Shown here: in pieces, positions 41,116 through 54,402 of the stretch
Numbering within the stretch: the stretch's first letter is position 1
How the letters are laid out: every line of letters starts with the position of its first letter
NCBI GenBank assembly: GCA_902784785.1
Contig: CACZWF010000002.1
Span: 1-54,402 of the forward strand
Direction: 5' to 3'
DNA length: 54,402 nt
Origin: an uncultured Bacteroidia bacterium
GTDB taxonomy: Bacteria; Bacteroidota; Bacteroidia; Bacteroidales; UBA932
Made by a program: the position numbers and the translations under genes
Notes under the pieces: generated by a model
What the model was told of the DNA's origin: nothing
The model's database searches: none
What the model saw: only the letters and a program-made list of their open reading frames with translations

Positions 41116-42153
41116 CTATTTCTCAATGAATACGCAGTAATAGTTGGAATCCGACCAGGCATCTAGGAAGTGCGCGATGCTGACGGGCAGGGGAATGGGG
41201 CCGAATGCGGGGTCGTATAGGGCGACTTCGTCCCTGTTGATATCGACGGAGAGCACGACGACGCAATGGTCCACGATACCGCCCGCGAAAACATCTTCCA
41301 ACCTCTCTTCCACGGGATTGCCTATCAATTCGCCGCCATCGACGGCCGCCAGCACTTGCTTGCCTTCATCCAGGGCCTTCATTACATCTTGCAGCGTCGC
41401 CTCGTTCACTTTCTCCACCTTCAAGCCAAACTCCCGGGCCGTGTTACCCAGGTCCTGAACCTTGGCGCCGTCTTCCATCAGCCATCCTTTCTTCATGGCC
41501 AGGTCGCGCAACTCATCCAGGGATTGATGGATGCCGAAGCAATGCAGGATATACTCTTCGCAACGGATGGCACATAACGAATCGCCTCTCGTACGGGCAA
41601 TCTTCATAATCTCCTCCAACTTCTTCAGCGCCCGTACTTTCATATTGTAAAGATTGGCTTTCTTGATGCCGGTCAATTTTTCCAGTTCATCGAAACTCAT
41701 CTCTTCTATGATGAGTTTCTGGAGAATCAGTCTGTAATTTTCGTTCTCTATCTGGTCCAATATGGCGGCAACCCGCATGTCTTCTTCTAATTGTTTCCGG
41801 TCCGGTCTTTCGGGATTCTCATCTTCAATTTTCTGCGCTTCATATAAAAGACGGTCCCCACTCTCATGTTCTATCACTCTTTCCCGATTTTTCTTTTCCA
41901 AGAAGTAGTTACGGGCCACGGATTTCAGCCATCCGTAGATGTTGGAACGACCTTCAAACATCCTGAGCCGTCGGGCATCGTCAGCCATCAGGTGCAGATA
42001 GAGTTCATTGACCAATTCGTCATAATCGGCCTTGTTGTCGAAAATCTTGCCAATCAGAGCGTAAAAGAGCGGCTTGCACATCTTGAAAAAGAAGTGCTGC
42101 GTAATCTTCTCGTCCCGGGCAATCAGTCCCTGTATGATTTCCTGATCGGTCAT
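41116..42153 (-). CDS. Sigma-70 (ECF-like) factor fused to a C39/papain-like cysteine peptidase domain
   Basis: 345 aa. Residues ~20-90 are sigma region 2 (YDELVNELYLHLM, FEGRSNIYGWLKSVARNYFL) and ~123-185 region 4 with its HTH (MSFDELEKLTGIKKANLYNM). Residues ~190-345 form a C39-like domain: DSLCAIRCEEYILHCFGI with candidate catalytic Cys194 in the CxxxC pattern of the family, QVLAAVDGGELIGNP, IVDHCVVVLSVD with His296, and LYDPAFGPIPL with Asp314. The Cys-His-Asp triad looks complete. The peptidase half could cleave an anti-sigma factor or the protein itself, or serve as a ligand-binding module (inference). It lies 23 bp after the ATPase gene and probably shares its transcript. Confidence 0.88.
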   Translation of the reverse strand: MTDQEIIQGLIARDEKITQHFFFKMCKPLFYALIGKIFDNKADYDELVNELYLHLMADDARRLRMFEGRSNIYGWLKSVARNYFLEKKNRERVIEHESGDRLLYEAQKIEDENPERPDRKQLEEDMRVAAILDQIENENYRLILQKLIIEEMSFDELEKLTGIKKANLYNMKVRALKKLEEIMKIARTRGDSLCAIRCEEYILHCFGIHQSLDELRDLAMKKGWLMEDGAKVQDLGNTAREFGLKVEKVNEATLQDVMKALDEGKQVLAAVDGGELIGNPVEERLEDVFAGGIVDHCVVVLSVDINRDEVALYDPAFGPIPLPVSIAHFLDAWSDSNYYCVFIEK

Positions 42154-42176: not shown

Positions 42177-43550
42177 TTAGCAGCGAGTATTGTTTATCAC
42201 GTCTTCCGGTCCCAAGGCGTTTCCGAGATTGTCTTCAGGGGTGACTTTGGTGAAAAGTATGATCCGGATGTCTTTCCCTTGTGCGAAGGGCAGGGCCTCG
42301 GAAATGCGTTGGAGCCGGCGGGTGAGCAGGCGGCCGTTTTCGCCGTTGGTCCACTTGCATTCTCCAATCAGTAAAGTCTTATGGTCCAAAGATTCGGCTA
42401 CAATATCCAGTTCAACATCTTCCCATCCTTCATCCAGCTTTACCTTTCCCCACCATCGTCGGGCTACGCCATAAGTAATTCCGCTTATCGTATTCCCCGT
42501 TACCGATTCACGGCATAAATGCTCCCACCAATATCCGATGTGCCCCGGGAATCGTTCTTCCATCAGCGAATCAATAGGACCAAACCGTCCTAATTCGATG
42601 AACGAGCGGTTGGGGATGACGAACTGGTAGTAGAAACTCAAGAAAGGGTCTGCAATGTGGTATAAGCTTTTCTTGCTATTCTTGGGCGATTCTCCGAATG
42701 GCGTCTCTTTTTCTAAATATCCCAAATCCACCAATTTGGCTAATGGGCGGGACAGGTTGGTGGCCGGCTCTCCGCAACGGGACGCAATCTCGCTGAGGCG
42801 ATGTACACCACGGCCGACAATGGACATGATGGTGGATACTTTCACCGTGTCTTTGATGTCGTCTTTGAAAAGTCGTAACGGCTCTTCGTACAAGATTCCA
42901 AATGGGGAGAAAATATGCGTGTCAATGGCCTCGCGCAAGTTTGATTCCATCTCCCTAAGCTTCCAGTAACGCGGCACTCCGCCCCATACAGAATAGTCCT
43001 CAATGGCTTCTTCGGCATTCACCCCCAAAGCTTCTTGCAAGTATGGCAACTTGATGGGATGCATATTGAAATCAGAATTTCCCCTGCCGTAGAGTGGAGA
43101 TTGTTCATCGTGCGTGAGATTATACATCATCGTTTGCGACGATCCGCACAAAATCAGATGATACTTCAAATCGCCATTGTCCAGCAAACTTTGGATAATG
43201 GATGGTAACGCAGGTGTGTTCTCTGCCAGATAAGGGAATTCGTCCAAACAAAGCGTAATCCTGTCCGTGATGCGGTAATTCAATGCGGTAAGCAGCGTCC
43301 TCCAGTCTTTGTATTCGACATCAGCGAAGCCGGGGAGGTGAGCGGAAATAACCTGTGCACATAAGCGCATTTGTTCAATGGCATCTGTCCGATCCGCTTC
43401 GAAATAGATATCTTTTTCAGAAAGTACTCGTCCGATCAAAGAAGATTTTCCAATTCGGCGTCGCCCTCTGATAATCACAAAAGACGGTTCTGGCGCATTG
43501 AGGAGCCTTTTCAATCGCTCAATTTCTTCTTTCCGGTCAACAAATTTCAT
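42177..43550 (-). CDS. AAA ATPase with DUF234/PD-(D/E)XK-like C-terminus
   Basis: 457 aa. The N-terminal ATPase shows FVDRKEEIERL, Walker A RGRRRIGKSSLI, Walker B TLCLDEFPYLAE and the sensor-like LILCGSSQTMM. A winged-helix segment follows (~250-310), then the DUF234 domain, with VELDIVAESLDHKTLLIGECKW near residue 395 resembling a PD-(D/E)XK nuclease core. Such proteins are multi-copy in Bacteroidota and archaea and of uncertain function. Its promoter is flanked by an 8-bp inverted repeat. A remnant of a second copy (last 27 codons plus promoter region) lies at 50486-50625 in the same orientation. Confidence 0.88.
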   Translation of the reverse strand: MKFVDRKEEIERLKRLLNAPEPSFVIIRGRRRIGKSSLIGRVLSEKDIYFEADRTDAIEQMRLCAQVISAHLPGFADVEYKDWRTLLTALNYRITDRITLCLDEFPYLAENTPALPSIIQSLLDNGDLKYHLILCGSSQTMMYNLTHDEQSPLYGRGNSDFNMHPIKLPYLQEALGVNAEEAIEDYSVWGGVPRYWKLREMESNLREAIDTHIFSPFGILYEEPLRLFKDDIKDTVKVSTIMSIVGRGVHRLSEIASRCGEPATNLSRPLAKLVDLGYLEKETPFGESPKNSKKSLYHIADPFLSFYYQFVIPNRSFIELGRFGPIDSLMEERFPGHIGYWWEHLCRESVTGNTISGITYGVARRWWGKVKLDEGWEDVELDIVAESLDHKTLLIGECKWTNGENGRLLTRRLQRISEALPFAQGKDIRIILFTKVTPEDNLGNALGPEDVINNTRC

Positions 43551-43645: not shown

Positions 43646-44257
43646 TCATGCACCTGCGGATACGGTGATTTTATGCATCAGATCCGGGTTCTGTTTCAGT
43701 TGCGCGTTCAAGTCGATGTGATAGGTCACTTCTTCCCGCAAGGCCGGGGCCGTCGATGACGAGTCCGCAAAATTCCAGGTAAGCAGGACGACCTGTTTCT
43801 TCAGTGACTTGATCTTGCGGGCGAGCATTTCGTGGTCCGCATCCCCGGTGATGAGCACGACAAAGTCGAAATCCCGGTACACCGCCAACTCATACGTCTC
43901 CAGCGCGAACCAGACATCGATGCCCTTTTCTTTAATCGTGCCATCCGGCATCTCATAAATGTGTTTGTAATGGAAAACCACATCGTTTTCAATGAGTTTG
44001 TCCTCAAACTTCCGGTCGCTCTCGAGTTTCTGCTTCTGCTTGGCCTCAAAAGCCTTGAAACGCCCTTGAAAATAATGGCTTTCTGTAATGATGCAGGATT
44101 CCCTCGGAAGCTCGAACTTTTCCGAAATGCACGTGCGGATATGGCTCATTATCCCCTTGAGATTGACCTTTGAATTCGGCTGCAGTCCCTTGTTCATTTC
44201 CATGAAATAGCCCCCGTCTATGAAAAGACCGATGGAGTAGATTTGGTTTTTGGACAT
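43646..44257 (-). CDS. NYN-domain (PIN-like, LabA/DUF88) protein
   Basis: 203 aa. A NYN nuclease fold is suggested by the acidic motifs YSIGLFIDGGYFMEM (Asp14), KEKGIDVWFALETYELA and FDFVVLITGDADHEMLARKI, with the final VVLLTWNF strand. These Asp residues would bind metal for RNA cleavage. YFQGRFKAFEAKQKQKLE is a helical insert. No partner gene in an overlapping operon is seen; 72 bp separate it from the preceding AT-rich genes. RNA processing or defence are both possible roles. Confidence 0.85.
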   Translation of the reverse strand: MSKNQIYSIGLFIDGGYFMEMNKGLQPNSKVNLKGIMSHIRTCISEKFELPRESCIITESHYFQGRFKAFEAKQKQKLESDRKFEDKLIENDVVFHYKHIYEMPDGTIKEKGIDVWFALETYELAVYRDFDFVVLITGDADHEMLARKIKSLKKQVVLLTWNFADSSSTAPALREEVTYHIDLNAQLKQNPDLMHKITVSAGA

Positions 44258-50485: not shown

Positions 50486-50569
50486 CTATTTCAAATAGTT
50501 TATCACGTCTTTCGGCCCCAAGGCATTTCCCAAGTCTTCTTTAGGAGTGACTTTGGTGAAAAGCACAAT
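50486..50569 (-). pseudogene. C-terminal remnant of a second DUF234 ATPase gene
   Basis: Reading the minus strand from 50569 gives 27 codons then TAG (IVLFTKVTPKEDLGNALGPK, DVINYLK), matching the end of the ATPase at 42177-43550 (IILFTKVTPEDNLGNALGPE, DVINNTRC). Directly upstream of it, with only ~12 bp between, comes sequence matching the promoter of that gene. About 1.3 kb of coding sequence is therefore missing. The alignment of the two loci is ~80% identical by eye. The remnant overlaps, in another frame, the read-through end of the broken DA1-like gene. Confidence 0.85.
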
Positions 50570-51276
50570 CTATGCTTTAAATAATTATGCCCCGTAAACA
50601 TAATGTTTTTATTGCATAATTCCATTGCAAATTCGTGAGCCAAGATGCCTTTGAAAACCAGGCGCGGAAGATTCTCGTGAATCGTTATCTGACAGGAATA
50701 GCGCAATCTTGAGGGAGAAACCTTGCCGGAATTTAATCCCCAAAGTCCTCTCCCAAGTTTCTTGGACTCTTCTTTCATATCCGAAAAACTGATATGAATG
50801 TCGTTGGGGATACCCGTAATGTCTTTCTTTTGGAAGACTGCCATTACTTCAGCGCGGCAGCGTTCGATTTCTTCAGGCGTTTTTACAATGGACTCGGCGC
50901 ATTTGTCACAAATGAACCTATCTACCAGCTTGTTTCCGCCGTTCGTAAAATAGCTGTATTTAAACGAGTGCCCGTTTCGGACAATGGTTCCACAATATTG
51001 ACAAATTGTCCCGTGTTCGCGGCAAGCGGTGTTTCCCCAATAGTCGCTTACATAACGATGAGCGGTTTCCCCGCACACGCAACAAACAGGAGCAGAATAT
51101 AGACATGAGAAGTGATAATTATGTCCATTAAAAACCTCTTTGGGATGAGAAAATTCATTGCGGATTATCTTGCCGCACTTATAGCAAGTCCTGCACGACT
51201 TATGGTAAAACTTGCCGTCGATTTCGACAGCGTCAAGCGCAGTCACGACCTTATGACAATCCGGGCAAACTCTCAT
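50503..51276 (-). pseudogene. LIM-domain/DA1-like metallopeptidase truncated inside HExxH
   Basis: 257 codons from the ATG at 51276, but only ~216 belong to the family. Residues 1-130 hold zinc-finger/LIM-type Cys/His pairs (CPDCHKV, CRTCYKCGKII, CCVCGE, CQYCGTI, ICDKC). Residues ~150-215 match the DA1 peptidase domain (CQITIHENLPRLVFKGILAH) up to His214-Glu215 of the HExxH zinc motif. The next codons (FAMELCNKNIM) come from the promoter region of an ATPase gene, so the second zinc His and all the rest are lost at ~50621-50628. DA1-type proteins are ubiquitin-linked peptidases in plants; bacterial ones are uncharacterised to my knowledge. The peptidase cannot be active; a Zn-binding product may still be made. 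A TAAATTTG box lies at 51377-51370. Confidence 0.82.
50583..50621 (-). promoter_or_regulatory. Copy of the ATPase promoter with the same inverted repeat, -7 box mutated
   Basis: AATTATGC (50583-50590) and GCATAATT (50614-50621) are again 23 bp apart, as at 43561-43599. The -7 box reads TATGTTTA rather than TATGTTTG. It drives no intact gene and is best seen as part of the deletion scar. Confidence 0.7.
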
Positions 51277-51369
51277 TTCTTAGCGTTCTGATTTGTTCGA
51301 AATATTTTTACAAGAGGTAAAACCAACAGCCAATATGTAATCCCCCAAAGGATTAAACATTAATAATGA

Positions 51370-51460: not shown

Positions 51461-51712
51461 ATGGCTTATTTACCGCAACCGCTTGATGAATCGAAAGTTG
51501 ATTTGCCGGAAGGACTGGATGAGTTGACGGAGTCGCTGGCTAAAAATGTCCATGAGGTCTGGTCCTCCGGCAGGCTCGCCGAAGGGTGGAAATGGGGCCC
51601 GGTCAGGGATGATGCAAAGAAAGAGCACCCCTGCCTAATACCCTACGAGGAGTTATCGGAAGAAGAAAAGAGCTATGACCGTGCCACAGCTCTTTCTACC
51701 ATTAAATTATAA
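51461..51712 (+). CDS. Stand-alone RyR (ryanodine receptor-type) domain protein
   Basis: 83 aa, just one domain. The RyR signature is clear: YLPQPLDESKVDLPEGLDEL, NVHEVWSSGRLAEGWKWGP, RDDAKKEHPCLIPYEELSEE and EKSYDRATALSTIKL. In eukaryotic calcium channels the domain occurs in repeats; bacterial single-domain versions exist, including in Bacteroides, with no settled function, and RyR domains have been linked computationally to nucleotide-signalling conflict systems. No signal peptide or TM. It converges on the M48 gene with only 14 bp between them. Confidence 0.93.
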   Translation: MAYLPQPLDESKVDLPEGLDELTESLAKNVHEVWSSGRLAEGWKWGPVRDDAKKEHPCLIPYEELSEEEKSYDRATALSTIKL

Positions 51713-51726
51713 GGTAAGCCGCTAAG

Positions 51727-52938
51727 CTAGCAAATTGCGTCGAATGAGGGGGTGAAGTTCCGTTGAATCATCGCGGCGAATTGTTGCGAAATCTCCTTTT
51801 CCGAGAAGTTGAGGCTCTTGCCGAAGCCATAAACGAACGAAATCTCATCATTGGCTATCTGCTTGTCGGATATCACCAAACTGATGACATAGGCCAGCAA
51901 ATTCTCACGCATCGCGGGTTCCAACGTAAGGATGATGTGAACCGACTGCTCAAAGAGTTGTTCGACATTGGCTTTCGCAATGGCATCTAGAAACGGGGTC
52001 GGGAAGATTTTAACGCCGGATATGTGTTGGAGGATGTGTTCCACTTCTTTTTCCGAAACTTTGTCGTCCGCATTGGCTACAAGAAGGCCTGCCGATGCGA
52101 TAAATATGGCCAAGTGTTCATCAATAGGGCTGTTCCCAATCTTCAGCAGGCATTGGATTAGGTCTTCCATTTCTTTCTCCAGCGCTTCTTCGCTGCCGGA
52201 CGTGGCAAAGAGACGGATGGCCTCCACACGTACCGGGTTTACCGGGTGATCGTAGCTGTTGAGCCCTTTCCCTTCCAAGAAATACTTCAGCCGTTTTTTG
52301 TTATTCGCCAGATAAGCCTCGATGCTGACGTTCATCTTCTCGAAATCCAGGCCTGAAGCCATCTTGAAGAAAGCGGAAACGCAGGCATTCAGGTTCCCAT
52401 TGGCCCAAAAACCATAGCGGTCGGCTACCAACTCTGCCAGCTGGTCGTGCAAACGAATCTTATAGGCCAGTATCATGGGCGGGTCTATATGTTCCGGAGG
52501 GAATACGAAATAAATGAGGCGCTTGAGTGCGGTGTCTTTGTTGATGATGTGCCCCAGTTCGTGTCCGACGACGAAGCGAAGCTCATCTTCGCTCATCAGC
52601 CCGAACATCGCGGAATTGACATTGACAATATGGGGTTCTCCTTCTTCTTCCGAAGCTACGGAGAAAGCATTGATGGAACTGTCTCCGGTCACATAAAAAT
52701 CCACCGGTTCTTCAAAGCCAAGACGTTGCTTGACTTCCTGGCACAATTTGTAGAAGTCCGGAAGAATATCTTCTTCCACTTTCATACAATGGCCTTCCAT
52801 TCGGTTGCGCCAATAATCATTGCCGGATCCGTCGTTGGCTGATTTCAGGATGGCATTCACGACCGAGCCTTGCAGTGCTTGATAAATCTGCTGTCCAAGT
52901 TCCTGTTCCAGTTTGATCGTGGGGTTTAGTTGAGGCAT
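51727..52938 (-). CDS. M48-family metallopeptidase with TerB-like C-terminal domain
   Basis: 403 aa. No signal peptide or TM helices, so probably cytosolic, unlike HtpX. The peptidase part shows HIVNVNSAMFGLMSEDELRF, the zinc motif HELGH at 126-130, and HDQLAELVADRYG with the third ligand Glu near 169. Residues ~265-400 form a helical TerB-like domain (HLAIFIASAGLLVANADDKV, SEKEVEHILQHI, LVISDKQIANDEISFVYGFG), a module seen in tellurite-resistance/stress proteins. Its upstream region carries copy 2 of the 67-bp promoter-leader repeat, linking its control to the TIR-like gene. Confidence 0.9.
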   Translation of the reverse strand: MPQLNPTIKLEQELGQQIYQALQGSVVNAILKSANDGSGNDYWRNRMEGHCMKVEEDILPDFYKLCQEVKQRLGFEEPVDFYVTGDSSINAFSVASEEEGEPHIVNVNSAMFGLMSEDELRFVVGHELGHIINKDTALKRLIYFVFPPEHIDPPMILAYKIRLHDQLAELVADRYGFWANGNLNACVSAFFKMASGLDFEKMNVSIEAYLANNKKRLKYFLEGKGLNSYDHPVNPVRVEAIRLFATSGSEEALEKEMEDLIQCLLKIGNSPIDEHLAIFIASAGLLVANADDKVSEKEVEHILQHISGVKIFPTPFLDAIAKANVEQLFEQSVHIILTLEPAMRENLLAYVISLVISDKQIANDEISFVYGFGKSLNFSEKEISQQFAAMIQRNFTPSFDAIC

Positions 52939-54173: not shown

Positions 54174-54402
54174 TTAGAAGCCGATTTTACCTTTCTTTTT
54201 GTCCAGTTTGAAGGTCTTGACGTCCGCGAGTTCGACCTGGTGTACCGCGGGGCGCTCGGGCAGGCCGGCTTCGCGGAGGATGACCTGCTGGTGAATGGTC
54301 CGGGCCATCAGTTTCATCGTACGGGCGTTGGTCTCGATCGAGGCGCTCAGGGAGTTCAGATAGCCTCGGATATGCGCTTCGGCTTCCGGGGTGATAGTGG
54401 CT
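54174..54402 (-). CDS. C-terminal fragment of an uncharacterised protein (cut by the window edge)
   Basis: The frame ends at TAA 54176-54174 and is open for 76 codons to the edge (AEAHIRGYLNSLSASIETNA, LMARTIHQQVILREAGLPER, basic end KLDKKKGKIGF). GC-rich codons in contrast to the AT-rich island. Not recognised. An internal ATG exists (MKLMARTIH...), but helical sequence continues upstream of it, so this is probably only the tail of a longer gene. Confidence 0.6.
   Translation of the reverse strand, partial: ATITPEAEAHIRGYLNSLSASIETNARTMKLMARTIHQQVILREAGLPERPAVHQVELADVKTFKLDKKKGKIGF

Follow-up and report, generated by a model that had tools for sequence, protein, structure and literature searches.

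A conserved fusion of an ECF-type sigma factor with a C39-like domain in Bacteroidales and its probable origin from a neighbouring partner gene

Several groups of ECF sigma factors combine a sigma core with a regulator in one chain or in two adjacent genes. ECF sigma factors with a C-terminal extension have a folded domain after the core and no separate anti-sigma gene beside them; IutY/ECF243, ECF48 and ECF52 are sigma factors fused to an anti-sigma factor and are membrane-bound; and the ChrR-type soluble anti-sigma factor consists of a ZAS head and a cupin-like sensor (PMC8999054). The protein described here shares the architecture of the first group and differs from it in having a C39/papain-like extension; the term C39 is absent from the main text of PMC8999054. 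Like IutY/ECF243, ECF48 and ECF52, it would have originated by the joining of a sigma factor to its regulator, but it has no anti-sigma-like head and only the neighbouring domain is left. Its split relatives resemble the ChrR type in having a small head and a second domain encoded next to a sigma gene, whereas their second part is C39-like, often with a RyR domain, and, among the heads seen, a zinc-ligand motif is present in one only (L052).

The C39 domains of ComA and PCAT1 have the same fold and the same Cys-His-Asp positions as the fusion, which, in contrast to them, has no ABC transporter part, no known leader-peptide substrate and no oxyanion Gln. RyR-domain proteins, represented by the structure 3nrt and by the phage protein RyDEP (accessible part of PMC13232231), are related to about half of the split relatives through their RyR domain, which the fused proteins lack. 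According to the same part of that source, phage RyR-domain proteins degrade or sequester cyclic ADP-ribose immune signals. A literature search, in which the coverage of subscription journals was thin, returned no paper on a sigma-C39 fusion.

The window, that is, the whole analysed stretch of 54,402 nucleotides from an uncultured Bacteroidia bacterium (GCA_902784785.1, contig CACZWF010000002.1), encodes the fusion as one uninterrupted reading frame; the features are given in Table 1. Residues 22–182 match the sigma70-ECF model TIGR02937 (E = 1.6e-15, 57.1 bits against a cut-off of 42.9), and with regions 2 and 4 and no region 3 the protein belongs to the ECF sigma factors, while the Pfam matches to regions 2 and 4 (E = 0.003 and 0.015) both lie below the gathering score. 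In the C-terminal part, PF03412 (Peptidase_C39) matches residues 192–251 above the threshold (E = 1.7e-6, 28.3 against a gathering score of 22 bits) and PF13529 (Peptidase_C39_2) matches residues 190–316 just below it (21.2 against 24 bits); in the fused relative L065 the PF03412 score of 20.5 is also below the gathering threshold. Pfam found no ABC transporter domain in the chain, which places the protein outside the C39 exporter type. The first-pass annotation had proposed a single chain with a sigma factor and a C39/papain-like domain and had noted that no separate anti-sigma gene adjoins it. Both points are borne out, the first by 345 residues in an open frame with TIGR02937 and PF03412 above their cut-offs, and the protein is thus a sigma core joined to a folded extension with no anti-sigma gene beside it. 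Searched against its own genome, the window protein gave one match.

Table 1. Features of the window discussed in the text, with coordinates and strand.
Feature	Coordinates	Strand	Remarks
Sigma-C39 fusion gene, 345 residues	41116..42153	-	Single ORF without internal stop
Sigma region 2, residues 23-90	41884..42087	-	Weak Pfam match; TIGR02937 covers 22-182
Sigma region 4, residues 138-179	41617..41742	-	Weak Pfam match
C39-like domain, residues 190-345	41119..41586	-	Abuts sigma region 4; no space for an anti-sigma-like head
Cys194 codon, putative nucleophile	41572..41574	-	Kept in 32/32
His296 codon	41266..41268	-	Kept in 32/32
Asp314 codon	41212..41214	-	Asp in 27/32, Asn in 5/32
DUF234 ATPase gene	42177..43550	-	Directly upstream of the fusion; PADLOC candidate family PDC-S27, E=1e-39
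NYN-domain gene	43646..44257	-	Homologue directly before sigma-C39 in L060, L064
LIM-domain gene	50503-51276	-	LIM match E=7e-5
Lone RyR domain gene	51461-51712	+	PF02026 E=1.4e-29; distance to the fusion 9.3 kb; RyR family shared with about half of the split partners
M48 peptidase gene, weak TerB match	51727..52938	-	67% homologue directly before sigma-C39 in L065
336-residue gene after AAA	53151..54161	-	Homologues near sigma-C39 in L060, L063
Tandem AAA (SpoVK/CbbX-like) gene, C-terminal end	54177..54386	-	Cut by contig end; homologues near sigma-C39 in L059, L061, L062

The fusion is real and conserved, and it is rare in its family. Seven further Bacteroidales/Bacteroidia genome bins carry it (L059–L065, where L063 is G113), eight with the window, at 69–77% identity to the window protein. 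They were obtained from a profile scan of the species-genome collection, which gave 20 loci among 29 pattern stretches, seven of them fused; an earlier scan of species genomes with the window protein alone had found no relative in 50 pattern stretches. The record titles of three of the seven name the ruminant stomach (roe deer once, water buffalo twice). In a survey of 299 genomes of the same family, a full-length match was present in two only, the window's own and G113 (74% identity), and G162 retained a C-terminal remnant; both G113 and G162 contain broken copies of the fusion. A scan of a viral contig collection with the C39 profile, covering 57 pattern stretches, yielded no relative and hence no viral carrier.

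The eight fusions form one clade in the trees of both domains (support 100/100 and 100/99). The mean pN/pS over the eight proteins is 0.22 for the C39 part and 0.26 for the sigma part, indicating that the whole fused chain is under selection; for the window protein against the seven others, the value in the C39 part is 0.17–0.26. Given these ratios and the same fusion in seven other genome bins, we rejected an assembly artefact as its source. G113 also shows what is probably the trace of a deletion (L031 1939-4284): behind a caspase-domain gene, the initial 42 codons of another sigma-C39 copy stand before the final 43 codons of the tandem AAA gene.

For the comparison with non-fused proteins, a survey of 393 genomes of the same order, 14 of which had a match, was pooled with the species-genome scan, giving 24 non-fused homologues after copy removal and, with the eight fused proteins, an alignment of 32. 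L058 (partial profile cover, E = 8e-4), G052 and the G162 remnant were left out, and second copies of the same record were dropped (L002/L031/L063, L005/L032/L045/L066, L004/L033/L068, L003/L034/L071, L012/L036/L075, L014/L037/L078 and window/L001/L046). A sigma gene lies directly upstream of the C39 gene in 18 of the 24 non-fused homologues (TIGR02937 E ≤ 7e-5, with 4 of the 18 above the cut-off), and in 14 of these 18 the two genes overlap by 4–29 bases. No sigma model matched the gene upstream of L078; L073 and L074 begin too near the contig end to judge the presence of such a gene; and in L057, L076 and L077 neither a head nor a sigma gene was seen.

An anti-sigma-like head of the type SEELLAAYLDGNATxEE precedes the C39-like domain in 21 of the 24 non-fused homologues by eye and in 20 by pattern, which misses L054. 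The zf-HC2 model matched three of the five heads scanned (L052, L055 and L040), weakly and below the gathering score (E = 0.008–0.01), and did not match the remaining two (L066 and L070). The L052 head, the only one in which a zinc-ligand motif was seen, retains H-x3-C-x2-C. Structure prediction gave the head of the split protein at low confidence. Behind the C39-like domain, a RyR-like motif was found by pattern in 12 of the 24, or in 13 if L047 is counted by eye; the two proteins tested with the RyR profile matched it strongly (L066, E = 2.5e-32; L070, E = 1.1e-29), and the L066 model is 57–60% identical to chains of the Bacteroides thetaiotaomicron RyR structure 3nrt. Judged from sequence, the split relatives would be laid out as soluble anti-sigma factors carrying a further domain, the partner acting as the anti-sigma factor.

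Two loci show a variant of this arrangement: in L040 (9813-14099) and L041 (5509-9771), a related sigma gene and a head-only partner are followed by a 498-residue gene and then by a gene that is Hsp70/actin-like by eye. The anti-sigma-like head may therefore pair with more than one downstream cargo. In Dactylosporangium (L076 8812-9501 and L077 8821-9510), the C39-like protein is free-standing and keeps the Gln residue discussed below; the frame adjoining it in L076 is dynamin-like by eye.

Because a sigma gene adjoins the C39 gene in 18 and the head precedes the C39-like domain in 21 of the 24 non-fused homologues, the sigma factor probably took over the C39-like domain of its partner. The fused proteins run from sigma region 4 straight into this domain, without a RyR domain, and in a tree rooted on the actinobacterial rows the eight fusions nest among the split forms; from this outgroup root, the split form would be older than the fused one. 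With no head at the junction and the fused proteins nested among the split forms, a single event that removed the head and attached the C39-like domain to the sigma factor is the most parsimonious history. The first-pass annotation had spoken of a peptidase built into the sigma factor. The fusion itself is true, but the domain was not added from nowhere, since in the relatives it sits in the gene of the anti-sigma-like partner.

The catalytic set of the C39-like domain is conserved throughout. Cys194 and His296 are present in all 32 aligned proteins, and the position of Asp314 holds Asp in 27 and Asn in five, so the fusion has the Cys, His and Asp/Asn of peptidase family C39; Cys194 and His296 account for two of only six columns, out of 158, that are identical in all 32. 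All three residues, Cys, His and Asp, also occur in G052, outside the aligned set. The residue numbers given by the first-pass annotation hold in the alignment, and the loss of the triad among homologues that it had named as a ground for a non-catalytic domain was not found. This conservation is not a product of the search, since the species scan picked up its 20 loci via a C-terminal motif from which all three residues are absent. In C39/papain enzymes, a Gln before the catalytic Cys shapes the oxyanion hole and matters for these enzymes. Six residues before Cys, it is found in L053, L055, L057, L076 and L077; all eight fused proteins have Thr or Ser there and thus lack this feature of family C39, which favours binding rather than catalysis. 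As far as can be judged from the residues, peptidase activity of the fusion is plausible. In the accessible part of PMC10630487, the activity of ComA is lost when Cys17 or His96 is changed.

In the AlphaFold2 model of the fusion (mean pLDDT 81.5, pTM 0.49), Cys194 starts helix 194–205, His296 starts strand 296–304 and Asp314 follows strand 309–313. At this pTM, the placement of the domains relative to each other is unsure. Foldseek placed the ComA peptidase (5xe9_A, E = 5.2e-4, TM 0.78 on target) among the best fold matches; ECF sigma chains were also matched, as was the acyl-enzyme of the phytochelatin synthase-like Alr0975 (2bu3, E = 6e-4). Residues 93–119, between the sigma regions, have pLDDT below 50, and between region 4 and the C39-like domain low confidence is limited to residues 185–189. 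The structure prediction proposed in the first-pass annotation thus put the triad at the expected helix and strand ends of a ComA-like fold; that the three residues meet in space is suggested by topology and homology.

In the upstream regions of genes around the fused loci we noticed by eye a promoter-like motif, GATAGATT-N13-CGTCTT. Since it was first seen in the same loci in which it was later counted, it is the whole-genome searches that carry weight. These found eight exact copies, all on the contig with sigma-C39, in five of the seven other fused genomes, no exact copy in the remaining two and none in seven split-form genomes; the number expected by chance in the seven loci (93,632 bases) is about 0.0006. 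At exactly one mismatch, the seven fused genomes gave 10 matches (two of them in the L059 locus) against seven in the seven split genomes, which is hardly different. The exact 15-base form was present in four of 298 family genomes, G113, which has the fusion, G218, G269 and G286.

In all six loci that have a conserved 139-residue gene, the motif stands 25–35 bases before it with 0–2 mismatches. Other copies precede the tandem AAA gene in L061 and L062, a 262-residue gene in L063 and, at more than 100 bases, a 184-residue gene in L059 and L065. Pfam and NCBIfam gave no clear function for the 139-residue protein (best match DUF6717, E = 0.024). ECF sigma factors usually read a bipartite promoter close to the gene that encodes them. 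On this distribution, the sigma-C39 proteins would read GATAGATT-N13-CGTCTT.

The genome of the window contains neither an exact copy of the motif nor a match to the 139-residue gene, and of its tandem AAA gene only the C-terminal end lies on the contig. Within the window, six sites with up to three mismatches compare with 4.2 expected, and 24 of 100 shuffles gave as many, which is the level of chance. A site with GATAGATT before the LIM gene (near 51365, minus strand) was considered as a promoter and rejected, because a 15-base spacer and two mismatches have to be allowed for it to fit. The whole genome has 25 matches with up to two mismatches against seven for the reversed control, none exact and one (C11) with a single mismatch; this excess is unexplained, and degenerate sites in the window's own genome are possible.

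Taken together, we lean towards an ECF-type sigma factor under the cis control of a C39-like domain that once belonged to its partner, and rate this as somewhat probable. The older arrangement would be a sigma gene followed by a gene for an anti-sigma-like head and a C39-like domain, with RyR in about half of the cases; one Bacteroidales clade would have lost the head and come to carry the C39-like domain directly on sigma region 4. The domain would inhibit the sigma factor by contacting region 4 or the linker between regions 2 and 4, and binding or turnover of a ligand or peptide at the Cys-His-Asp site would be the switch. After this rearrangement, the sigma factor would transcribe a small local gene set from GATAGATT-N13-CGTCTT promoters, its chief targets being the 139-residue protein and the tandem AAA protein. 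A fuller version is rather doubtful as a whole. In it, the sigma factor would carry a catalytic unit of the cysteine peptidase type as its switch, and ligand turnover or cleavage of the chain in cis at the active site would activate a dedicated set of local promoters in a defence-like island; the system would have evolved from a sigma/anti-sigma pair in which this unit worked next to a RyR domain, a possible sensor of nucleotide signals. If the cis-regulated sigma factor is the right reading, the locus lets one trace how a sigma factor and its partner became a single self-regulated protein, with split relatives for comparison; the C39-like domain would join the known sigma regulators, and, with a candidate promoter and a target gene named, the mechanism is directly testable. 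The RyR domain, present in about half of the split relatives, also links the C39-like domain to a family with phage members that degrade or bind nucleotide immune signals (accessible part of PMC13232231).

Other explanations were weighed against the same data. The domain could be a working cysteine peptidase that cuts its own chain or linker, self-cleavage freeing the sigma factor upon a signal. The retention of the Cys, His and Asp/Asn set in all 32 proteins, with loci found via a motif that lacks these residues, the C39 fold and the need of ComA for its Cys17 and His96 (accessible part of PMC10630487) agree with this, as does the poorly predicted segment between the sigma regions (residues 93–119). 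We nevertheless consider self-cleavage unlikely: the Gly-Gly pairs of the window protein occur only at 273 and 291, inside the C39 domain and not in the linker or at the junction, no other conserved cleavage motif is visible by eye in the alignment, none of the eight fused proteins has the oxyanion Gln, and only the five residues 185–189 are of low confidence between region 4 and the domain.

Alternatively, the C39 domain could be an enzyme of acyl transfer or hydrolysis whose substrate is a different protein or else a small thiol or peptide; its fusion to the sigma factor would then serve only to keep enzyme and response linked. The match to the Alr0975 acyl-enzyme and the headless homologues in Dactylosporangium and L057 speak for such a substrate, but the position of the domain's gene beside a sigma gene in 18 of the 24 non-fused homologues points to sigma control, which makes this explanation quite improbable. 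A further possibility is a relic domain without catalytic function, attached to a sigma factor that, in the window strain, is either always active or dead. We hold this very improbable in view of the pN/pS of 0.17–0.26 in its C39 part and the invariant Cys and His, even with the oxyanion Gln missing, broken copies present in G113 and G162, and no good promoter site or 139-residue gene found in the window genome.

The neighbourhood of the fusion varies. Directly before it are the DUF234 ATPase gene (after NYN) in the window, NYN in L060 and L064, M48 in L065, tandem AAA in L062, an SH3b and membrane protein in L061 and L063, and a different ATPase, of the ATPase_2/AAA_14 kind, in L059. The membrane protein next to the fusion (L061 6812-8437, L063 6900-8426, L062 7827-8984) gives an SH3 match in L061 and L063; PARP is matched weakly, and only in L063 and L062. 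In the window, the NYN, M48, AAA end, 336-residue, RyR and LIM genes lie within 14 kb. The first-pass annotation had linked the fusion to the DUF234 ATPase on a likely shared transcript. The gene does lie directly upstream, but the partnership is not conserved: L063 alone among the seven other fused loci holds a homologue, four genes away. We rejected it as a functional partner; the gene is probably an interloper, and, given L059, a looser link of the fusion to ATPase_2/AAA_14-type ATPases is possible.

Our impression is that the island around the fusion is defence-like. PADLOC, run on eight proteins, gave no match for five of them; the AAA protein of L059 weakly matches IetA, an anti-phage ATPase, and the sigma part of the fusion weakly matches Csa3 (E = 5.7e-5), which we take as a helix-turn-helix resemblance. 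LIM domains, one of which is encoded in the window, are unusual in bacteria. At 50498-50569 on the minus strand, a 24-residue stretch matches the end of the DUF234 ATPase at 79% identity and is perhaps the remnant of a second copy.
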